Positions 5,278 through 60,290 of a stretch of 64,000 bases of DNA are shown here, piece after piece. The notes beneath the pieces were generated by a model that had not been told where the DNA came from, ran no database searches, and was given only the letters and a program-made list of their open reading frames with translations. Positions within the stretch are counted from its first letter, which is position 1. Every line of letters begins with the position of its first letter. Source of the stretch: a virus; IMG/VR virus record IMGVR_UViG_3300020182_002648, positions 1-64,000 of that record; one strand, written 5' to 3'. Both the position numbers and the translations under genes were made by a program.

Positions 5278-5802
5278 ATGACCGAGTGTACAAATAACAT
5301 AACCCTAAGTGATTTACCTACTTGCAGTAATATAGATAACCAAGGATATTTAATTGTACAGAATACTGATAGTACATGCAAGGTTAAGATTTCAGACTTA
5401 GTGTTAGGTGTCGAGAATGTAAGTTTCTATCCGGAACTACTCGATATTATATCTCAACTAGAAACATTAACAGCAATCGTACAATCCAAGTCAGCAGAAT
5501 GGGATACATGCTACACAACAACCAACACAAACAGTGCTGCTTGGGGTCAGGTTGACAGCTTAGGTTTAGCTGAAGTTGGTAATATTGTTGAAACAACAAG
5601 TGCAGAATGGAGTGACACAACATCTTTAGTATTAGCGAAAAGCGCTCAATGGGACGCAGCTTATACGTATATGACTGATTACTCTGTAGAGTGGAACGAT
5701 GGACTAGCTACAATAGCATTATATCCAGAGTACTCAACCACTATAGGAATAGTTCAAGAATTATCCGGTCAATGGAATACAGCTTACATGAACTGGCAGT
5801 AA
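5278..5802 (+). CDS. small virion protein with degenerate W-repeats
   Basis: A 174-residue acidic protein. The first 60 residues (TLSDLPTCSNIDNQGYLIVQNTDSTCKVKISDL) resemble the opening of phage fibre proteins that list attribute-like 'GYLIVQ..TDSTCKVKISDL' strands. From residue 70 it carries diverged copies of the motif found in the giant fibre genes (KSAEWDTCY, TSAEWSDTT, KSAQWDAAY, LSGQWNTAY). It is thus a short relative of the 2914-aa and 1367-aa proteins and may be a connector or accessory of the fibre. The next gene begins 6 bases after its stop. Confidence 0.6.
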   Translation: MTECTNNITLSDLPTCSNIDNQGYLIVQNTDSTCKVKISDLVLGVENVSFYPELLDIISQLETLTAIVQSKSAEWDTCYTTTNTNSAAWGQVDSLGLAEVGNIVETTSAEWSDTTSLVLAKSAQWDAAYTYMTDYSVEWNDGLATIALYPEYSTTIGIVQELSGQWNTAYMNWQ

Positions 5803-5808
5803 TTGAAT

Positions 5809-8800
5809 ATGAGAAATGTAAAGATCAAGTCCGGAGAGAATTGGAATTCATTATCCCTAGATTATGAGTTTGATGATAAAATAAAATTCAGTAACAAAGT
5901 AATAACTAGTGCAGATGGTATTTCTCTAAACCTAAGTGATACTCTATCAAATTGTGTGGATATATCTAATAATAATTACAGTACATTGATGATGAGTGAC
6001 TTGTGTAGACTTGACGACTTAATTGACCTAGATGTCAATACAACCGATTACCCAGAACAATTCACTACCACACTTACATTCGATTCATCACCTGTCATAA
6101 CAACCACTAGTAAATATTTAAAAATCCTACCTAGAGTTGATGATAGTGATGAGCGGGATTTAATATTCGGGGAAGATATCATTGACAATGTAGCGTATGA
6201 TAGTTATTATTTTAATCAGACAGAGGATGACAATGATATTTATTTTAGTATAAATCTAATATCACATGATCAACTTACAATCAGTCATAACGATAATTAC
6301 GCAAACGTTTATCTGACGCTCCGGAGCGACGGTACGTTTACATTTCGTGTTGGTACACTAGATGAACCGAGTTCTAGTCAAATATTCAAATATTTTATTA
6401 ATAAAACCACCGGTAGTTTGATATTAATGACGGAGGTCGCCGGTGTGACATCGTATATAGGAACTAAGGCCGGGGAGTTAAGCTTATTGACTCCATCCAT
6501 TGAGGACCCCAAGTATCCACCATCAAGTTTAATTTCAATATTCCCCTACAGTAAGACATCAAAGAGGATGAGTATAATTAACAGTTGGGTCAGTTATAAG
6601 ACGACTGGAGATCTAAATAATTTAAATGTTAATGAGAGTAGAAGTTATAAGGATGTGTTTAATAATTTTATATTCAGTAACCAGTATAGTTGTATAACAG
6701 GATCAAACATGAATCTTGATATAATACAACTAAAGAATCAACTAACATCAGACTCAAACTCAACACGTAATAATCCATTTCCTAATTTTATTGACTGTGA
6801 TCATCGAGAATATGACAGTATATTCACTGGTAGTAATCAGATCAAAGGGACTGATAACATGTACTTAGGTTATAATACATACACGACTGATATTACACTA
6901 CCTACTGACAGCATAACCTACTTCCATACACCTCAAGTGATGTACCCTATAAGTAAGCTAAATGTTAACGATAGTGGTTTGATAGAATCCGGAGCAATTG
7001 GAGGTGATTCGCCTATAGTGTCTGATAAACTCTTCAAAAAGGCATCCAACTATAAATACAACTCTCCTCACGGAGCTCCTTCAGATGAGGAAACTGGTGT
7101 ATGGTTGTGTACTTGGTTGAGGAGTAGTATAGAGTCTATATGGGATGGTGATGTTGAGTACGATAGAGATATACTTGTCAGCTACAACAACTCAGTATAC
7201 AAATCATTGAAAAGAAACTCAAACTCTATACCCTCTAGTGATAGAACATCATGGGTTGAAGTACCAGAAGAAAAACCAGTATGGGTTGACAGGTATTATA
7301 ATCCTGAGTATTATAGTACCCAGCAAGCATTAGAGGTACCAGATCAATATACATCATATGCATCTAAGTTTGAGTATATTGTATCAACTCTCAGTGCAGA
7401 GGAGATATACGTATTTGATAAGAAGAGTGATTTGGTGTTTGAGCCTGGGTGTCTTTACGCGTATTATAGGATAGGTGGTAGTGAGAATAATACTATAATA
7501 GATAGTTTGAGATCAACGTTAATTCATGAAGGTCAGTCACCTGCTTACAGAGATGACAGAACCATATACAATAACCCCAACAGGTCATTAACACTAGATG
7601 GTACTCTATATATAGAAACAGAGTCACTAAACAAGACTAACAACAGTGATTACACCATATCAGTTAATATAGGTTGTGATGACTGGACGAAACCATTTGG
7701 AGGTCAGATAGTAGGTAACTATACTAATCACGGAATCGGTATATTTAACACTATGTACACAACGCCCTTCATAATCATATCAAATGAATCCAGTACAGGT
7801 ATATACAACACTAATCTCGAGTTAATTAAATCAATACCATTATCTGGGATCCAGGTAGTACATGGACCTGGGGCAGAGAATATACACATACTACATACAG
7901 TTAATGGAATATATAACATTGCTCAATACGATCATACTGGATTATTAGTAGAGAACACTCCACTACCGGATATTAACTCTACTATATCTCATATAAACAT
8001 CGATGGAGATTATATGTATATACTCGATGTCACTAACTCAGTTTACAAGTATAATATTAACAATGAAGTACAGGACATATTGTATAAACCTATACCAGCT
8101 GGAGTTATAGGTGACGAGCAATTACTATCTACCAAAACATACATTGAGATATTTGATGAATATCAGTATAAAATAAACTGTGATCAATACACAATAGACG
8201 TAACCGGTAGTATATGGTATAAAAAAGCTGGCAATATTGTCAAGTATATGCCGTCTAATCAATTAGGATCGAACGCGACGTATAGCAATACAATCAACAA
8301 TATAAGTGTATCTCTGATTGCAGAAGAGAGGACACGTGGATCTGATGGCAATAATATTATAATATTTGGGGACGGTATTAACACGTTATCTTTTATAGTA
8401 GGAGAGTGGAATGATCAGAATCCAGCTAATAAAGTTAGGATAATAAGTGGTGATGATAGTAAATCTCTTATTATATCAGACAACGAGCAGATAAGGTTGA
8501 TAGGTGGAATTGATGCCGGATCTTCGACCACTAATATAGCGCTGTCATCCGTTGATTGTGACATTACTGGTATCAAATCTGATATAGATAATAATATATG
8601 GCTCCTGGCTAAAGATAATCAATCGTTGACGGTTTATAAAATCGATAGTAACAGAAACATACTGTATAAGAAATCACTACGTGATATTAACACTATCCTC
8701 AATGACATGGTTGTAGGTAATATCTACTTAGACTTAATTTCTGAATTTAAGGAAGGAGAGCATATTAACAATGTATTAATATTAAATCAAAATCCAACTG

Positions 8801-52436: not shown

Positions 52437-53894
52437 ATGTCACAGGTAAAACCCGCACAATCATATATTGATGAGGAAAGAGCTGGAACACTTCTTGAGA
52501 AGTGGGCACCAGTTTTGGATTACACATCCGATAACGTTAAACCTATCACCGATGATCATTCTCGTTTGAACACCGCTATTCTCTTGGAAAACCAAGAGTC
52601 ATGGTGCTTGAAAGAAAATTCAGCTGGTGGTGGAGCAGGCGGAGTCTTCGGATCTGCTGGAAGCATGGGTCAAGGAGGCGCAATGACGCCTGCTCAAGAC
52701 TTTTACGCTACTGGCGATGCACGTCTTCCAAAAATTCTCATCCCAATGATTCGTCGTACATTCCCTGAACTAATTACTAATGAGATCGTAGGCGTCCAAC
52801 CTATGAGTGGTCCAGTAGGGCTTGCTTTTGCAATGCGTTACAAATACGAAAATGAATCTTTGGGTTCAACAGGTATTGACGGACACACTAATGGGTCAAC
52901 AACTACTGGTAAAAACGGCCAACCTCGTACAGCAGGAAATGCTCCTGATAACGAAGCCGGATACCAGAAGTTAGACACACGTTTCACAGGTGCATCTTCT
53001 GCTGCTTTAAGTGGAGACGCTGGACTCGGAATCGACTTTGTCGATAACGATGCTGGTATCGCTGCTAAACTAGCTGATTATGAACTTACTGGTAACATCC
53101 CACAGATGGTAGTCTCTTTTGAGAAGACCGCTGTTGAGGCTGGAACTCGTAGGCTCGCTGCACGTTGGAGCGTAGAGCTTGAACAAGACCTCAAGAACAT
53201 GAATGGTATTGATATCGATACTGAATTAACAAACGCTATGTCGTATGAAATTCAGGCCGAAATTGACCGTGAAATGCTCATGAGAATGGTTCAAGTCGCC
53301 GCCAATGCTGGAAGTGGAAAAGGTGTTAGCACCTGGTCCCCCGCTAGTGCTGACGGACGTTGGATGGCTGAACGTAATCGTGATCTTTACGCCAAAATTA
53401 TCGTAGAAGCAAATCGTATTGCTATTCGTAATCGCCGTGGAGCAGCTAACTTTTTAGTTGCTACTCCTCGCGTTTGCGCTATCTTGGAAATGCTCCCTGA
53501 ATTTCAGTGGATGCAAGTTCAAGGTAATGTCAATACCCAACCCGTTGGAATTGCTCGCGTCGGTAACTTAGGTGGAAGATTTAACGTTTACCGCGATACA
53601 CGCACAGAAGCTCAATACGAAGACGGACAAAGGTCCGGCGGACGTATGGAGTATATTCTTTTAGGCTATAAAGGACCTGAGTTTTACGACACAGGAATCA
53701 TTTATTGCCCATACATCCCAGTGATGGTACAAAGAACTGTAGGTCCTAATGATTTTGCTCCACGTGTTGGACTGCTCACCCGTTATGGTGTAGTAGACAA
53801 TATCTTCGGTGCAGATCTTTATTACCACGTTATCGTAATCAAGAATCTCGGTGATTCGTTCACACCCGGCACTCAGTCGGTGTACTTCGGATAA
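52437..53894 (+). CDS. gp23: major capsid protein (gp23-like)
   Basis: A 485-residue protein with the gp23 layout. An N-terminal region to be cleaved contains LLEKWAPVLDY and TAILLENQESW. It continues with DARLPKILIPMIRRTFPELITNEIVGVQPMSGPVGLAFAMRYKY, TRRLAARWSVELEQDLKNMNGIDIDTELTNAMSYEIQAEIDREML, NFLVATPRVCAILEML, GLLTRYGVVDNIFGADLYYHVI. Unlike most genes here it has a clear Shine-Dalgarno (AAGGA, 10 bases before the ATG) and its codons carry more C at third positions, as expected for a very highly made protein. A strong terminator follows. Confidence 0.95.
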   Translation: MSQVKPAQSYIDEERAGTLLEKWAPVLDYTSDNVKPITDDHSRLNTAILLENQESWCLKENSAGGGAGGVFGSAGSMGQGGAMTPAQDFYATGDARLPKILIPMIRRTFPELITNEIVGVQPMSGPVGLAFAMRYKYENESLGSTGIDGHTNGSTTTGKNGQPRTAGNAPDNEAGYQKLDTRFTGASSAALSGDAGLGIDFVDNDAGIAAKLADYELTGNIPQMVVSFEKTAVEAGTRRLAARWSVELEQDLKNMNGIDIDTELTNAMSYEIQAEIDREMLMRMVQVAANAGSGKGVSTWSPASADGRWMAERNRDLYAKIIVEANRIAIRNRRGAANFLVATPRVCAILEMLPEFQWMQVQGNVNTQPVGIARVGNLGGRFNVYRDTRTEAQYEDGQRSGGRMEYILLGYKGPEFYDTGIIYCPYIPVMVQRTVGPNDFAPRVGLLTRYGVVDNIFGADLYYHVIVIKNLGDSFTPGTQSVYFG

Positions 53895-54007: not shown

Positions 54008-54038
54008 CAAAAAAGGCCGCCCTGTGTAGAGCGACCTT
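54008..54038 (-). terminator. rho-independent terminator of the reverse operon
   Basis: Read on the reverse strand: AAGGTCGC, 10-base loop, GCGGCCTT, followed by T residues (A run at 54008-54014). One G-T pair in the stem. It faces the gp23 terminator and ends the queF operon. Confidence 0.85.
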
Positions 54039-54064: not shown

Positions 54065-54997
54065 TTATTGTTTGCTTGTCTTGACGTGAGGTATCTTCAC
54101 GTCAATCAAAGCAGGGCATGCCCAATCAATTGAGCTCTTATCATTAGCACGAACAGGATTGATATCAATACCACCTCGACGAGCATACAGACAGGTTACC
54201 ACGAGCTTCTCCGGAGACAATATATCATGTAGACGTTTGTATATTGTCTCACATATCTCTTCATGAAAGTGACATTCATCCCTAAACGAAATGATATACT
54301 TGAGCATGCTCTCAGGTGTCACGTGGTTCTGTCCTTTGATAGCAATCCATACATCACCCCAATCTGGTTGACTTGTGACACGACAATTACTCTTGAGCAA
54401 ACCACTATGAAACTTAGACCAGCTAGTGACAATACCACCCTCTGGTAGATCTTCTAGTTCTAACAAGTCTGGTGTCTCCGTGTATGTTTCCACATTCATA
54501 TCGGTTAGTAATTGAGGATCTAACACTTCCTCTAATGTCGTGTATCCTTTCCTGCTGAACAAAGGATCTCCACTAGCTTTGATATTAGATGGTATCACGT
54601 GTACCTCTACATGAGTCTCTAGCAACTTGCTCAAATCATCTGATGCATGTAAAGAGATAAACTCTAACACGCTTTCTTGACTGTTTCCGCATTTGAACAT
54701 GTTGAAACTATTGAAATACAACTTGATACTCTTGCTCTCAACAATGTACTTACTATCACACGGATACACGATTTTAGCCACCCCAGCAACAGGTAACCCA
54801 CCATTAGTCAACCCACTCACTTCATATGCATTCCATGTATCATATCCCACGAACGGTAGATCATCATCACTGATATCTAGATGCTTTCTATTGTTACTTC
54901 TAGGTTCTCTGACCAATAAATTACTATCGTATTGGTCCTTGTATTGAGATGTTTGTCCTAAATGAACTGATATATTACTATTGTCTAATTTTGTCAT
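54065..54997 (-). CDS. queF: NADPH-dependent 7-cyano-7-deazaguanine (preQ0) reductase, long form
   Basis: A 310-residue protein of the long, two-domain QueF type. The substrate and NADPH motif reads ESKSIKLYFNSFN (residues about 86-98). The C-terminal domain has the catalytic cysteine in KSNCRVTSQPDWGDVW, with the Asp seven residues later as in E. coli QueF (Cys190/Asp197). It then has LKYIISFRDECHFHEEICETI and TCLYARRGGIDINPVRA. It reduces preQ0 to preQ1. Bacteria use preQ1 for queuosine in tRNA, but here the gene shares an operon with a DpdA-like transglycosylase and a formyltransferase, so the product more likely goes into DNA. Its ATG overlaps the stop of the P-loop gene. Confidence 0.92.
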   Translation of the reverse strand: MTKLDNSNISVHLGQTSQYKDQYDSNLLVREPRSNNRKHLDISDDDLPFVGYDTWNAYEVSGLTNGGLPVAGVAKIVYPCDSKYIVESKSIKLYFNSFNMFKCGNSQESVLEFISLHASDDLSKLLETHVEVHVIPSNIKASGDPLFSRKGYTTLEEVLDPQLLTDMNVETYTETPDLLELEDLPEGGIVTSWSKFHSGLLKSNCRVTSQPDWGDVWIAIKGQNHVTPESMLKYIISFRDECHFHEEICETIYKRLHDILSPEKLVVTCLYARRGGIDINPVRANDKSSIDWACPALIDVKIPHVKTSKQ

Positions 54998-55545
54998 TTT
55001 ATGTGCTTTAAAATTGTTTCCATCCTCTCTTCTACAGATCCACTTAACTTAACTATTCTATCCCTCCATGAATTCACACCTGGTAAGCTAACCGGAGATG
55101 TGAGAATCTCGTTGTATATATCTAGTATATTGTTACGAAACTGCATGTCAGTGCTCCTCACACCATCATCCTCGAATGGTATCTCATCAGGACATGTATA
55201 GAATATAACATCTAACTTGTTACCTAGAAACGATAGCATGTTCCGCGAGAACTCTCTCACCCAGGTTTCTACTAATCCTTGATCTGATAACCATTTTGTA
55301 TACACATAGCCATCCAATATACATCTATCGAGAATGACATTACCTGTCATACAGTGATTGTCTAGATGTTCTTTGAGAATATGTAACTGTGTCATATCAT
55401 TACCAGATGTATTTATATCATGACCTTCTCTAGCTACTTTTCTAGTAACCTCATCAACAAACTGCCAGTTGTTGAGATGTTTCTTACATTCAGCGAGTAA
55501 GGTTGACTTACCTGTACATTGTGCTCCTGTGAATCCTACTAACAT
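54994..55545 (-). CDS. P-loop ATPase/kinase, NadR-like (AAA_28)
   Basis: A 183-residue protein with Walker A GAQCTGKST at residues 7-15 and VILDRCILDGYVYTKW as the Walker B/DRx region, typical for the AAA_28 group near NadR and nucleotide kinases. Later IFYTCPDEIPFEDDGVRS and FRNNILDIYNEIL match the lid and C-terminal helix of these enzymes. In phages they may phosphorylate nucleosides or NAD precursors; in this operon a role in nucleotide supply is possible. It has its own promoter, with the -10 box six bases from the ATG. Confidence 0.7.
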   Translation of the reverse strand: MLVGFTGAQCTGKSTLLAECKKHLNNWQFVDEVTRKVAREGHDINTSGNDMTQLHILKEHLDNHCMTGNVILDRCILDGYVYTKWLSDQGLVETWVREFSRNMLSFLGNKLDVIFYTCPDEIPFEDDGVRSTDMQFRNNILDIYNEILTSPVSLPGVNSWRDRIVKLSGSVEERMETILKHIK

Positions 55546-55551
55546 ATTCTA

Positions 55552-55580
55552 ATTATATCCTATTTGTTTGGATAGTTCAA
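55552..55580 (-). promoter_or_regulatory. sigma70-like promoter, leaderless type
   Basis: Reverse strand TTGAAC (55580-55575), 17-bp spacer, TATAAT (55557-55552), then TAGAAT and the ATG at 55545. The string TATAATTAGAATAT is also present at the two promoters near 63.4 and 63.8 kb. Confidence 0.75.
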
Positions 55581-55895
55581 CTTGTCATTCATGTTATCTA
55601 AATTTTTTTCTGTCCACATTGCACACATCATGTTCCATACCACTGCAGCGGCATGATCTTCACTCTCATCTCCTTGCCACCATTGCATCATGTGTCTATT
55701 AGCACTATCGTAATACACACTAAGCGGCATGCCTTTGGTCCAATTGTTGTCTCCATACTTTGCCCCACCGGAGCGGTACCTCTCCATCACTCTCTCAAGT
55801 TCCTTAATAGGTACTAAGGACATGCATAATTTACCGTCTCCTGTGTCTCTCTGAGCCCCGGAGTCGAATTGTCTGTTGTTAGATGTATCTGTCAT
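55560..55895 (-). CDS. dATP/dGTP diphosphohydrolase-like protein (DUF5664 type)
   Basis: A 111-residue protein, reading from the ATG at 55895 (MTDTSNNRQFDSGAQRDTGDGK). The motifs FDSGAQRD, ELERVMERYRSGGAKYGDNNWTKGMPLSVYYDSANRHMMQWWQGDESEDHAAAVVWNMMC match the phage dATP/dGTP pyrophosphohydrolase family, where the Glu/Asp/His residues of the helical core bind metal. In some phages members alter the dNTP pool for base replacement (MazZ in Z-genome phages). Here it may shift purine pools or clear a nucleotide; the specificity cannot be read. An upstream TTG start at 55934 is less likely. Confidence 0.7.
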   Translation of the reverse strand: MTDTSNNRQFDSGAQRDTGDGKLCMSLVPIKELERVMERYRSGGAKYGDNNWTKGMPLSVYYDSANRHMMQWWQGDESEDHAAAVVWNMMCAMWTEKNLDNMNDKLNYPNK

Positions 55896-56061
55896 ATCTT
55901 GAATTGAATGTTGAAACACCACACAATGCAGCAACAGTTGTTGATAATATGGCTTCTCCAGTCAACCCATGCATGGTCATCAGCACCGCTACCATCAGAT
56001 TGACAACACACATCACTATCAAAATCTGTCCTGCTAAATTAACATTGCTCCAACGTCTCAT
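55879..56061 (-). CDS. small membrane protein
   Basis: A 60-residue protein with two hydrophobic helices, ILIVMCVVNLMVAVLMTMHGL and EAILSTTVAALCGVSTF, and charged ends (MRRWSN, NSRYDRYI). No known family. It overlaps the next gene by 17 bases. A TTGATA...TATTAT promoter lies upstream. It could act at the inner membrane, for example in exclusion or lysis control, but nothing in the sequence decides this. Confidence 0.5.
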   Translation of the reverse strand: MRRWSNVNLAGQILIVMCVVNLMVAVLMTMHGLTGEAILSTTVAALCGVSTFNSRYDRYI

Positions 56062-56089
56062 GCTACAAGTACAATTAGTATGTCTCTGT

Positions 56090-56117
56090 ATAATATGACA
56101 GATAGATCTAATATCAA
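56090..56117 (-). promoter_or_regulatory. sigma70-like promoter candidate
   Basis: Reverse strand TTGATA (56117-56112), 16-bp spacer, TATTAT (56095-56090); 28 bases to the ATG at 56061. Confidence 0.5.
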
Positions 56118-56133
56118 TAACGTCAATATAAAT

Positions 56134-56382
56134 TTAATTCGTCCCATTGCTCTCTATACTGTCTATATTTGAGATGATATCACTCATTGTCAGTGATTGT
56201 GTTTCAATTCTACTAGAACCATTATTGTCAATGCGTTTATGAGTCAATCCTATGTTAAAATTGTTCACGTTGATATTAACATTATGATCAATGATCACAT
56301 GGTGAGATGTTTTAATTGTATTGCATCCAGTCAACCCAACAATCGTCATGGCTGTTCCTAATATCACGTTTATAATTTTCAT
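56134..56382 (-). CDS. small lipoprotein
   Basis: An 82-residue protein with a lipoprotein signal peptide: MKIINVILGTAMTIVGLTGC, with the lipobox VGLTGC and Cys at position 20. The mature part (NTIKTSHHVIIDHNVNINVNNFNIGLTHKRIDNNGSSRIETQ) is polar and Asn-rich. It would be anchored to the envelope of the host during infection. Phage lipoproteins in other systems serve as superinfection-exclusion factors or outer-membrane spanins. It sits 7 bases after the formyltransferase gene in the DNA modification operon, where an envelope protein is unexpected. Confidence 0.65.
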   Translation of the reverse strand: MKIINVILGTAMTIVGLTGCNTIKTSHHVIIDHNVNINVNNFNIGLTHKRIDNNGSSRIETQSLTMSDIISNIDSIESNGTN

Positions 56383-56389
56383 TTTTACT

Positions 56390-56917
56390 TTATGTTTTTA
56401 ATAGTTGTATCCATAATTGTGTAGCCATTTCATGTAAACGGCAACTTAAATCATCTTCTCCATAAAAGTTATTGGAAGTTGATATCTCTGCTAAGACTTC
56501 ACCGGCATCTACCTCTGAAATCACTTCATGAATCACACAGCCTACTCTCTTGTACTTCTCATCTCCAGTGTTCGCTACACGCTTCTGAGGATCAGCGCCT
56601 TTTAGCTCCGGGTACAGTGTTATCAAACCGGGATGTAGGTTGTATATTTTATATTCTCTACATATCTTTGGTGGTATGATTCTCATCCATCCATGGAGAG
56701 TGACAATATCCACATCCTTGAGAACATTTCTGTAGTCCTCAACAGATGGTTTCTGTTGAACATATACATTGTCTCTGATACCTTCATGTATTCGTTCACT
56801 TCCTGGTGTGTTGTTTGTTATGATCACATCTGGATCACGTCCTATGATGTTAGATATATTCACGATCTCTGATCCTGTGTGACTGAACAACGCAGCCCAT
56901 CTTTTGTTTTTTAGCAT
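56390..56917 (-). CDS. dpdN: formyltransferase-fold enzyme, candidate dPreQ1 formyltransferase
   Basis: A 175-residue protein of the formyl-folate transferase fold (PurN/Fmt N-terminal type). It has a GxxG-like loop FSHTGSEIVNI near residue 11, then VTLHGWMRIIPPKI, the catalytic Asn-x-His in IYNLHPGLI near residue 94, and the Asp in ISEVDAGEVLAE near residue 140. These match Asn106, His108 and Asp144 of PurN. A purine-synthesis PurN is one reading. It starts 1 base after dpdA and shares an operon with queF, so I favour DpdN, the predicted enzyme that formylates the aminomethyl group of preQ1 in phage DNA. The fold is well supported; the DpdN role is inference. Confidence 0.65.
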   Translation of the reverse strand: MLKNKRWAALFSHTGSEIVNISNIIGRDPDVIITNNTPGSERIHEGIRDNVYVQQKPSVEDYRNVLKDVDIVTLHGWMRIIPPKICREYKIYNLHPGLITLYPELKGADPQKRVANTGDEKYKRVGCVIHEVISEVDAGEVLAEISTSNNFYGEDDLSCRLHEMATQLWIQLLKT

Positions 56918-56918
56918 A

Positions 56919-57734
56919 TCATCTTTTGATTATTTTTTTAAACATTTTCGTGTTATACTCCAGTAGTTCCATGTCGATATCGTCAGCCTTATAGTCTATA
57001 AGATCTGCCAGGAGTGTTGAAGGTTTACTATGTAGTCCATGTATATCATTATATCTATAGTTCTTGATTGTGGCAACTACTGGGTTGCTCGTGTCAAGGC
57101 TCTTTATGTTATAAACATTGTTATCCACGTACCATCTAAACTCCTTCGCTAGACTACAACCTAATAGATGATGAGGTTTGTTCCAGTTCCAATGTCCCTC
57201 GTCAATCAATTGTCTTATAAACCGCTGCCTTCCTGAACACCATTTCTCTAAAGTAGGATTAGCTAATCCTGACTTCACACCAGTGTATCCATAATATTTG
57301 TAATCAAAACTAATAGCTATATAGTCAGCATGGTCACTCATGAACTTATAACACTTGAGTAGATGATCCCAATCCTTTCCCTGTACTACACCTATACGCA
57401 AAGCATCAGTAGTGTCAGTGTACTCATTCGTGAAACTCTTCCAGCTCTGTATTGTGTCCGCTGCATCTTCTAATACATCAGGTACTATATACCAGTTGGG
57501 TTGTAACTTGTCAATCCATTCAGCATATTTGATTGGATTGAAGCTCTTTCCTAACTCAAATATACTATTATCTAACAAAACTGAACATTTATTTTCATCA
57601 ACTAAATTCTTAAAAAATTTATAATAGTCAGGATGCGTTTCAAACAAATGTACTAATGCATAAGCGTAATCATTGTATTCTAGTGATTTGTCTAGAATTG
57701 AGATTGGACTCTCGTGTGATACTTCTATTACCAT
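56919..57734 (-). CDS. dpdA: DpdA-like DNA guanine transglycosylase
   Basis: A 271-residue TGT-fold protein similar in order of blocks to phage DpdA. CSVLLDNSIFELGKSF near residue 58 holds acidic and substrate-loop residues, followed by NWYIVPDVLEDAADTIQSW, LRIGVVQGKDWDHL, DYIAISFDYKYYGYTG, HHLLGCSLAKEFRWY and IKSLDTSNPVVATIKNYRYND. DpdA swaps guanine in DNA for a 7-deazaguanine base, in the manner of tRNA-guanine transglycosylase. The start is the ATG at 57734: a GTG at 57749 lies over the -10 box. Co-transcription with formyltransferase and queF supports the call. The subfamily cannot be assigned by eye. Confidence 0.75.
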   Translation of the reverse strand: MVIEVSHESPISILDKSLEYNDYAYALVHLFETHPDYYKFFKNLVDENKCSVLLDNSIFELGKSFNPIKYAEWIDKLQPNWYIVPDVLEDAADTIQSWKSFTNEYTDTTDALRIGVVQGKDWDHLLKCYKFMSDHADYIAISFDYKYYGYTGVKSGLANPTLEKWCSGRQRFIRQLIDEGHWNWNKPHHLLGCSLAKEFRWYVDNNVYNIKSLDTSNPVVATIKNYRYNDIHGLHSKPSTLLADLIDYKADDIDMELLEYNTKMFKKIIKR

Positions 57735-57740
57735 ACACTT

Positions 57741-57769
57741 ATTATACACTCAAACGTTGCATATGTCAA
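57741..57769 (-). promoter_or_regulatory. perfect sigma70 consensus promoter for the dpd operon, leaderless
   Basis: Reverse strand TTGACA (57769-57764), 17-bp spacer, TATAAT (57746-57741), then AAGTGT and the ATG at 57734. The promoter places transcription start at the start codon and rules out the upstream GTG. Confidence 0.9.
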
Positions 57770-57790: not shown

Positions 57791-57798
57791 TATAAATA
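57791..57798 (+). promoter_or_regulatory. T4-late-type promoter for clpC
   Basis: TATAAATA, exact consensus, 5 bases before the ATG at 57804. The ATG at 57798 lies on the last base of the octamer and is unlikely to be used from this promoter. Confidence 0.7.
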
Positions 57799-57803
57799 TG
57801 AGT

Positions 57804-60290
57804 ATGAAGGACTTACCTGATTTAACAGTTGCCGGTCGCCGCGCAATGATGACAGCAAAGAAAATTGCAGTAGATTATAAGCATGATTTCATTACAACCG
57901 AACATGTGTTACTAGCTATATTAGACTGTGATAAGATAACGCCTGGATTAAAAGCCATTTCTAAGCAGTATGTCCAGATAGACGACTTTAAATCCTTTGT
58001 TATAACCAATTTACAAAAATACACTGGCCCGGAGAACATTGATATAGGCCTGGTCGAACCATCACCACGTACATTACAGATGCTAGCATTCGCTAGTGGA
58101 ATCGCCGGTGAGATGGGATCATCTCTTATTGATGTGGATCACATGTTACTAAGTATACTAGTAAGCGATTCAGGTAGTGGTAACAATTTATTCAGACTCA
58201 AAAATATAAATGTTGATGACCTTTACGAGATCATATATGAAGCTATCACTCCACGAGGAGTGAGGAAGAAACAAGACCAAAAACAAAAATCCGGTATTGG
58301 TGGCAGTCATACTAACACGGACACTGATGAGATCTATGAAGAGAGTATCATCGATAAATACGCAGCAAATTTAACTCAATTAGCGTTTAATGGTGAGATT
58401 GACCCTGTGATAGGTCGTGATGACGAAGTGCAAGATGCAATTCAGATACTATCTAGACGTACTAAGAATAACCCTGTGCTAGTAGGGGAGCCCGGTGTTG
58501 GTAAGACAGCTGTAATAGAACTACTAGCTCACAGAATAGTCAATGGAGACGTACCGCAAAACTTGAGAGGTAAACAGATATACACATTAGATTTAGCCGC
58601 TCTGGTAGCTGGTACTATCTACAGAGGTCAATTTGAGGAGAGGTTGAAGGAAGTTATATCATACGTCACACAACGAGAGGATCTAATTATATTTATTGAT
58701 GAGTTACACATGCTTGTTGGAGCTGGTGCAAGTACTGGTAGTATGGATGCTAGTAACATATTGAAGCCAGCGTTAGCAAGAGGCAAGTTGTCATGTATAG
58801 GAGCCACTACCACTAGTGAATATAAGGAGTTTATAGAAGGTGACGGAGCATTAGAGAGACGATTTCAATCAATACATGTAGGAGAACCTGGGACAGAAGA
58901 TTGTATTGCAATACTTCGTGGTATCAAAGAGAAATACGAAGACTATCACAATGTAAAATATAACAAATCCGTGATAAAAGAGATTGTAACATTGTGTGAA
59001 CGTTATATTGTCGATAAAAACTTTCCTGACAAAGCGATTGACATACTAGATGAATCTGGAGCAGTAGCAAAAGTGTCTAGATATCATGGTAATACGGAGG
59101 TACAGGCTCTTATAGATGATTTGTTACATGTTAGCAGAAGCAAGGAAAAGGCTGTAGAGACAGGTGAATATGATTTAGGCTTAGGATACAGAGAAACAGA
59201 GGAACAATTGGCTGTTAAGTTAGAAGAATGTATCGAGGAGAGAGAAGCTGGTGAACTATCTAGAAACATAAAGCCTTCCAGGATATCAATTGAAGATATC
59301 AGAGAGTTGATATCTAATAAATGTGGTGTTCCTGTTAGTAGCATGGAGGCTGATGAGCTGAAAGTGCTGTCAAATCTTGCTATCAGTATGAAGAACAAGG
59401 TGATCGGACAAGAAGATGGTATAGACAAGATATGTAATGCTATCAAAAGGTCTAGAGCTGGTGTGAGCAACCCTGATAAACCTATATGTTCGTTATTATT
59501 TTTAGGACCAACAGGCGTAGGCAAGACCTATCTTGCACATCAACTAGGAAAAGCTATGTTTCATGACGGTAATTTCAAACAATACGACATGTCTGAGTTC
59601 AGCGAGAAGCATGCCACTAGTAAATTGATTGGATCTCCTCCCGGCTACGTCGGATATGGTGAGGGAGGGAGCCTAACGGAGTATGTTAGACACAACCCGT
59701 ACTGTGTACTACTGTTCGATGAGATCGAAAAAGCTCATCCTGAGGTGCTACAACTGTTTCTCCAAGTGTTTGAGTACGGTTGCTTGACTGATAGTGAAGG
59801 ATTAGAGGTAAATTTTAAAAATACTATAATAGTACTGACAAGTAACATAGGTGCTCACAAGTTTGAGAAGCGACCTAATGTAGGATTTGGTACAGGAGAG
59901 ACATTAGAAGAAGGAGTAGTGGCGGAACTCAAGAAGATGTATGCTCCAGAATTTATAAATCGCCTTGATGAGGTGGTTATATTCAACAAATTGACAGACA
60001 AAGACATCACATCTATTTGTACCGGGCTGTTAAAGGGTGTGAAACGTACTCTCAAGAATAACAATGGCAAGATAATTAACTTTTCTAAGGATATCGCTGA
60101 TCATATTCTATCTAAATCAAGAGACGCAGCATATGGTGCTCGTCCTTTGAAGAGAATCATCACAGAATTTATAGAGACACCACTAGCTGAGTTCATTATA
60201 TCTAACGATTCATCCATCCGCAAGATAAATGCTGAGGTTGTTGATGAAGATATACAGTTTACTGCTGCTTCTGTTGTTCAGCGTACTTGA
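57804..60290 (+). CDS. clpC: ClpC-type AAA+ unfoldase (Hsp100)
   Basis: An 828-residue, full-length two-ring-domain ATPase. The N-domain has two Clp_N repeats (AKKIAVDYKHDFITTEHVLLAIL; LAFASGIAGEMGSSLIDVDHMLLSIL). D1 has Walker A GEPGVGKT near residue 228, Walker B LIIFIDELHML and the arginine finger in LERRF. A short middle domain (SKEKAVETGEYDLGLGYRETEEQL) is as in ClpC, not the long one of ClpB. D2 has GPTGVGKT near 569, VLLFDEIEKAH, EFINRLDEVVIF and sensor-2 GARPLKR. RPNVGFGTG near residue 690 corresponds to the VGF loop with which ClpC docks on ClpP. It likely unfolds proteins for the host ClpP or for a phage protease elsewhere; none is in the window. Confidence 0.9.
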   Translation: MKDLPDLTVAGRRAMMTAKKIAVDYKHDFITTEHVLLAILDCDKITPGLKAISKQYVQIDDFKSFVITNLQKYTGPENIDIGLVEPSPRTLQMLAFASGIAGEMGSSLIDVDHMLLSILVSDSGSGNNLFRLKNINVDDLYEIIYEAITPRGVRKKQDQKQKSGIGGSHTNTDTDEIYEESIIDKYAANLTQLAFNGEIDPVIGRDDEVQDAIQILSRRTKNNPVLVGEPGVGKTAVIELLAHRIVNGDVPQNLRGKQIYTLDLAALVAGTIYRGQFEERLKEVISYVTQREDLIIFIDELHMLVGAGASTGSMDASNILKPALARGKLSCIGATTTSEYKEFIEGDGALERRFQSIHVGEPGTEDCIAILRGIKEKYEDYHNVKYNKSVIKEIVTLCERYIVDKNFPDKAIDILDESGAVAKVSRYHGNTEVQALIDDLLHVSRSKEKAVETGEYDLGLGYRETEEQLAVKLEECIEEREAGELSRNIKPSRISIEDIRELISNKCGVPVSSMEADELKVLSNLAISMKNKVIGQEDGIDKICNAIKRSRAGVSNPDKPICSLLFLGPTGVGKTYLAHQLGKAMFHDGNFKQYDMSEFSEKHATSKLIGSPPGYVGYGEGGSLTEYVRHNPYCVLLFDEIEKAHPEVLQLFLQVFEYGCLTDSEGLEVNFKNTIIVLTSNIGAHKFEKRPNVGFGTGETLEEGVVAELKKMYAPEFINRLDEVVIFNKLTDKDITSICTGLLKGVKRTLKNNNGKIINFSKDIADHILSKSRDAAYGARPLKRIITEFIETPLAEFIISNDSSIRKINAEVVDEDIQFTAASVVQRT

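Follow-up and report, generated by a model that had tools for sequence, protein, structure and literature searches.

Why would a marine T4-like phage keep an enzyme of queuosine synthesis, a guanine transglycosylase and a formyltransferase side by side in one operon? The question is raised by positions 54065-57734 of a 64,000-nucleotide (nt) stretch of viral DNA (the window), which forms positions 1 to 64,000 of the 146,809-bp IMG/VR record IMGVR_UViG_3300020182_002648. The record belongs to a T4-like phage, with a gp23-type major capsid protein encoded at 52437-53894, and may be incomplete, the last open reading frame (ORF) reaching its end. From the genes of the operon, we consider it likely that they exchange the guanine of the phage DNA, perhaps all of it, for 7-(formylamino)methyl-7-deazaguanine (fdPreQ1).

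Six ORFs run in the same direction on the minus strand (57734-54065) between a TTGACA-N17-TATAAT promoter and a terminator-like hairpin 3' of queF (54013-54038, minus strand; an 11-bp stem followed by a T run), although a terminator scan of the region found two sites against 1.7 expected by chance. They encode, in order, a DpdA3-like guanine transglycosylase of 271 amino acids (aa) (dpdA, 56919-57734), a DpdN-like formyltransferase of 175 aa (56390-56917), a small lipoprotein-like protein of 82 aa (56134-56382), a PF18909 dATP/dGTP diphosphohydrolase-like protein (55560-55934, start uncertain, perhaps 55895), a P-loop protein of 183 aa resembling deoxynucleoside or deoxynucleoside monophosphate (dNMP) kinases (54994-55545) and QueF, the preQ0-to-preQ1 reductase (54065-54997; 310 aa). 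The junctions are tight, with 1 nt between the dpdA stop and the dpdN start and a 4-nt overlap of the queF start with the kinase stop. A sequence-only reading of the window had described a reverse operon of QueF, a DpdA-like transglycosylase and a formyltransferase; all three lie where it placed them, on the minus strand and in one operon, while the kinase, the diphosphohydrolase-like protein and the lipoprotein-like ORF were missing from its list.

The QueF assignment follows from its catalytic residues and from a full-length match to a solved QueF in the PDB (E=7e-67, 229 bits). Both Pfam domains score over their cut-offs (PF14819, QueF_N, E=3e-32; PF14489, E=1e-21), and C205, D212, H245 and E246 are invariant in 13 homologues, so that the catalytic Cys and Asp noted from the sequence are indeed present. 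The substrate for this enzyme would have to come from elsewhere. Most long relatives of the record (n=14) carry preQ0 genes, QueC in 10 and QueD in 11, and the record itself has none that we detected; the preQ0 would thus be supplied by the host or by a missing part of the genome. The sequence-only reading, which had found no preQ0 synthesis genes in the window, can be extended on this point to the whole 146.8-kb record. Among the radical SAM (S-adenosylmethionine) genes at 99-107 kb, a single weak QueE-like match gave no support for a QueE, and no preQ0 transporter of the Vut_1 family was present in the record or its 14 relatives.

The 271-aa transglycosylase has no Pfam match; it matches phrog_19058 (E=2e-50) and shares 44% identity with a protein of Flavobacterium phage vB_FspM_immuto_2-6A (NC_055915; hereafter immuto) that carries the annotation 'DNA guanine transglycosylase, DpdA', and 41% with its homologue in Campylobacter phage CP220, over 93-96% of its length (E 3e-54 and 8e-45, respectively). 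More distant homologues occur in Cellulophaga phiST, Chryseobacterium MA9V-3, Rhizobium RHph_I1_18 and Bacillus BSTP12, and most of the phage homologues lie near preQ0-pathway genes. Sixteen proteins share D55, D86, G119 (of Q118-G119), H189 and D214 in 271-aa numbering; D55 and D214, the candidate catalytic aspartates, are invariant among those aligned. No PDB sequence matches it as a tRNA-guanine transglycosylase (TGT). The two best PDB fold matches of its AlphaFold model are TGT, among many barrels, and its matches in BFVD are phage queuine-ribosyltransferases and a 464-aa protein of phage nt-1, probably the nt-1 DpdA2. These fold matches rule out an unrelated TIM barrel and, together with the immuto homology, bear out the DpdA-like label given from the sequence. 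We predict that the protein inserts a 7-deazaguanine into DNA.

A profile of this dpdA family found no match to the DpdA of 9g, CAjan, nt-1, Dp-1 or 7-11, indicative of a different DpdA subfamily. We take this small-DpdA group to be DpdA3, the subfamily linked to complete guanine replacement. Both catalytic motifs can be aligned with the DpdA of Escherichia phage CAjan, pairing LDSGAF and CDSSSW with LDNSIF and LDTSNP, at a weak score (hhalign E 5e-4, probability 31%); the CAjan enzyme was tested by deletion (PMC6884629). In Rhizobium phage RHph_I1_18 (L276, 5019-6287), a dpdA-like gene is fused to DUF3310, which occurs in phage nucleotide kinases as well.

The formyltransferase matches PF00551 (E=4e-13), is 45% identical to its immuto homologue and keeps N93-x-H95 and D137 invariant across 14 homologues, confirming the fold and the Asn-x-His and Asp residues read earlier from the sequence. 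By sequence, its closest solved relatives are PurN. However, in a maximum-likelihood tree the 45 cassette formyltransferases, immuto's included, are split by a 100/100 branch from the PurN side, which was represented by three bacterial and cyanophage rows, and the PurN model TIGR00639 gives 49.5 bits against a cut-off of 150.1. A PurN identity is ruled out by these two results, and the grouping with PurN that would have spoken against the sequence-only reading was not found.

Some 90 IMG/VR loci contain this cassette, and the gene set is therefore not a chance assembly. We surveyed 92 IMG/VR loci with a related dpdA and found the kinase beside dpdA in 89, queF in 87 and dpdN in 54, with the dpdN start no more than 20 nt from dpdA in 50 of the 54. 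Two truncated contigs and one locus that seems to lack the kinase (L020) make up the remaining three. Conversely, a kinase-based search returned 77 loci, of which 71 have dpdA and the remaining six begin close to the cassette. Loci from bacterial assemblies have kinase and queF after dpdA in three cases out of four. The cassette takes two forms, dpdA-dpdN-...-kinase-queF and dpdA-kinase-queF; in the latter, dpdA and kinase overlap or lie at most 20 nt apart in all 37 loci. From established enzymology, the two forms should make fdPreQ1 and dPreQ1, respectively. The PF18909 protein (E=8e-21; phrog_801, E=4e-21; no match to PDB sequences) is present in 18 of the 92 loci, and the lipoprotein-like ORF, which has no family match in domain and family profile scans, is limited to close relatives (5 of 92). 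Eight cassettes carry a GMP (guanosine monophosphate) reductase gene between dpdN and the kinase (L086:9393-10352, L017:9414-10370 and six others), which suggests an adjustment of the guanine nucleotide pool. In a sub-group (L012, L013, L016 and L019), QueF is about 36% identical to the one studied here, as against about 57-69% in the others, with the cassette order kept; this suggests that queF was replaced there by a different QueF, with the functions kept.

From the established gene content, operon structure, homology, catalytic residues and conserved cassette, we infer the substrates, step order, chemistry and protective role in the following scheme. QueF would reduce preQ0, supplied by the host or by phage genes outside the record, to preQ1. 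The small DpdA would then swap guanine for preQ1 via a covalent aspartate intermediate, by default in DNA, by analogy with other DpdA, and the DpdN-like enzyme would formylate the aminomethyl nitrogen, with 10-formyl-tetrahydrofolate as donor. The modified DNA would be shielded from host restriction. It has been left open if QueF works on the free base or at the DNA level (PMC6884629). What leads us to fdPreQ1 is the combination of the immuto gene order, the 92-locus cassette, the invariant QueF and formyltransferase residues, the clade separate from PurN, the TGT and DpdA links and the QueC and QueD genes of long relatives. The sequence-only proposal of fdPreQ1 or preQ1 in the phage DNA is supported accordingly.

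Comparison with named phages places the operon among known systems. Neither the modification nor the types of enzyme are new, and the operon is shared with immuto; what differs here is the phage group. In immuto, dpdA, formyltransferase, kinase and queF follow in the same order, at 44%, 45%, 31% and 48% identity, respectively; its cluster adds folE, queD and queE upstream and a pyrophosphohydrolase, and the PF18909 protein is not in it. Phages with QueF carry dPreQ1 (PMC6884629; PMC12028318). Streptococcus phage Dp-1 and Vibrio phage 6E35.1a share QueF with the present operon (41% identity for 6E35.1a), and dPreQ1 has been measured in both DNAs; yet their DpdA is of another subfamily missed by our dpdA profile, they have no kinase of this family at a significant score, and replacement is incomplete (15% of deoxyguanosine (dG) in 6E35.1a). 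CAjan, whose DNA contains dPreQ0, shares the aligned DpdA motifs but, unlike the present phage, encodes the whole preQ0 pathway, has no kinase annotated near dpdA and is partially modified. Campylobacter Firehammervirus CP220 has dpdA and kinase adjacent as here (41% and 34% identity), with neither queF nor formyltransferase beside dpdA, an HD + AAA_33 protein upstream and a different final base, dADG. All dG is replaced in CP220 and CPt10, by dADG in the former (PMC8306585). The CP220 protein directly 5' of dpdA is an HD + AAA_33 kinase-like fusion, and the kinase family is represented a second time elsewhere (L022, 4886-5917; CP220 record, 5419-5922).

Several points weigh against the fdPreQ1 proposal. 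QueF scores 251.9 bits on NCBIfam TIGR03138, below the curated equivalog cut-off of 293.45, which is as expected of a divergent phage QueF branch. QueC, QueD (PTPS) and FolE were not found in the whole 146.8-kb record. The confidence of the transglycosylase model is modest, with a predicted local distance difference test score (pLDDT) of 68. In addition, the putative formyl acceptor, preQ1 or dPreQ1, is read from gene context only.

The kinase merits separate consideration. It matches PF13521 (E=4e-15) and contains a Walker A motif, GAQCTGKST, and a DR motif, DRCILDG. The top PDB folds for its model (pLDDT 86) are deoxycytidine, deoxyadenosine and deoxynucleoside kinases (dCK, dAK, dNK), followed by thymidylate kinase (TMK), at template modelling (TM) scores of about 0.7, and its sequence profile is undecided between dNK and TMK. 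We describe it as a P-loop kinase-like protein, whose putative substrate would be a deoxynucleoside or dNMP. By tblastn against the phage collection, strong matches to the family were confined to Campylobacter phages and immuto, with weak ones in Streptomyces phages. The kinase profile clearly matched Streptomyces phage IchabodCrane (E 1e-24), which has no dpdA of this family; it found nothing in 9g, Dp-1 or 7-11 and scored no better than chance in CAjan, nt-1 and 6E35.1a. This control for other DpdA subfamilies covers a handful of named phages and one annotated dpdA neighbourhood, that of CAjan, which contains no kinase; IMG/VR-wide control searches with the DpdA of phiST, BSTP12 and CAjan returned few loci. 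Other small P-loop kinase-like genes stand directly 5' of dpdA in MA9V-3, phiST and BSTP12. However, in the phiST-type relatives L279-L281 dpdA has no Walker A gene next to it, and locus L295 does not match the kinase profile; a kinase neighbour common to all small DpdA is thereby ruled out. In the Campylobacter phages, the dpdA-kinase pair is kept while queF and dpdN are not beside dpdA. Since the kinase stays with dpdA in loci that have neither queF nor dpdN, it should serve the exchange step or the supply of nucleotides around it. We did not find this near-constant partner of dpdA discussed in the literature examined.

The kinase opens an alternative for the site of exchange, which we regard as possible but rather doubtful: DpdA would act on a free deoxyguanosine nucleoside or nucleotide, the kinase would phosphorylate the product and the polymerase would insert the modified deoxynucleoside triphosphate, leading to complete replacement. 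The diphosphohydrolase would in that case supply deoxyguanosine monophosphate and lower deoxyguanosine triphosphate (dGTP). Consistent with such a route are the adjacency of kinase and dpdA in the surveyed loci, in immuto, in the Campylobacter phages devoid of neighbouring queF and dpdN and in most bacterial-assembly loci, the strong tblastn signal confined to phages with this DpdA, the kinase profile scores that are nil in 9g and Dp-1 and at chance level in CAjan and nt-1, the deoxynucleoside kinase-like fold, the GMP reductase genes and the diphosphohydrolase-like gene of close relatives. A modified dGTP route has been proposed for Campylobacter phages (PMC6884629). Yet the diphosphohydrolase is found in only 18 of the 92 loci, and L279-L281 lack an adjoining Walker A gene. 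Moreover, Crippen 2019 reportedly sought dADG phosphates in Campylobacter phage infections and did not see them, and a 2023 study in Nucleic Acids Research (NAR) is said to favour a post-replicative event; both count against exchange in the nucleotide pool.

Two further alternatives concern the product rather than the site. The cassette might stop at dPreQ1, with the formyltransferase serving purine synthesis or another amine. Its nearest solved relatives are PurN, cyanophages carry PurN-like genes and the 37 sister loci have no dpdN between dpdA and the kinase, all of which would fit; we nevertheless hold this improbable, given the 100/100 clade, the start of dpdN 1 nt past dpdA in this operon and at most 20 nt away in 50 of the 54 loci that have it, and a protein shorter than bacterial PurN (175 versus 209 aa) in which the Asn of the GxGSN phosphate loop is replaced. 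That the genes instead raise queuosine in host tRNA, an idea prompted by QueF being a queuosine enzyme and by the kinship of DpdA with TGT, strikes us as very improbable. A formyl group on preQ1 would block the completion of queuosine, and the 271-aa protein shares 41-44% identity with DpdA-type proteins of phages and has no PDB sequence match to TGT. The homologue-bearing CP220, moreover, has 100% of its dG modified (PMC8306585). Between these alternatives, DNA carrying fdPreQ1 is the outcome that we favour.

This proposal places a formylated 7-deazaguanine pathway, so far recorded in very few cultured phages, within a large uncultured aquatic T4-like group. Whether 7-deazaguanines enter DNA before or after replication, and how some phages reach 100% replacement, has been a question since 2019, and the dpdA-kinase pair bears on both. 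If exchange took place in the nucleotide pool, DpdA-type enzymes would include a nucleotide-level branch and not only a DNA-level one, with the polymerase building wholly G-free DNA.

The promoters of the operon have a rigid geometry, a pattern that we did not find in the literature examined. The dpdA promoter (57732-57769 including the ATG, minus strand; boxes 57769-57741) matches the consensus at 12 of 12 positions and ends 6 nt 5' of the dpdA ATG, a spacing of TATAAT that most of 80 related dpdA loci share. Since relatives begin at 57734 and the perfect box ends 6 nt upstream of it, we preferred this ATG, giving 271 aa, over a longer GTG start at 57749. A second promoter, TTGAAC-N17-TATAAT-N6-ATG, precedes the kinase gene (55543-55580, minus strand). 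The record holds 20 such rigid sites, TTG-N20-TATAAT-N6-ATG, where other offsets give 0-3 and shuffled sequences 0-1; their fuller form is AGTTGC-N19-TATAAT-N6-ATG. They include the dpdA and kinase starts, and the other 18 lie mostly at 64-91 kb on the minus strand. In contrast, a single site occurs in T4 and none in immuto, CP220 or CAjan. The TATAAT-N6-ATG geometry predicts transcript starts at the ATG itself and therefore implies a set of putative leaderless early mRNAs, with those of dpdA and the kinase among them.

Divergent from dpdA, an 830-aa ClpA/ClpB-like AAA+ protein is encoded at 57798-60290 on the plus strand; it is near the cassette in 16 of the 92 loci. Farther along the record, a minus-strand gene run at 99324-107121 (e.g. 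L027:282-7121) encodes at least five radical SAM proteins and adjoins tail-fibre genes.

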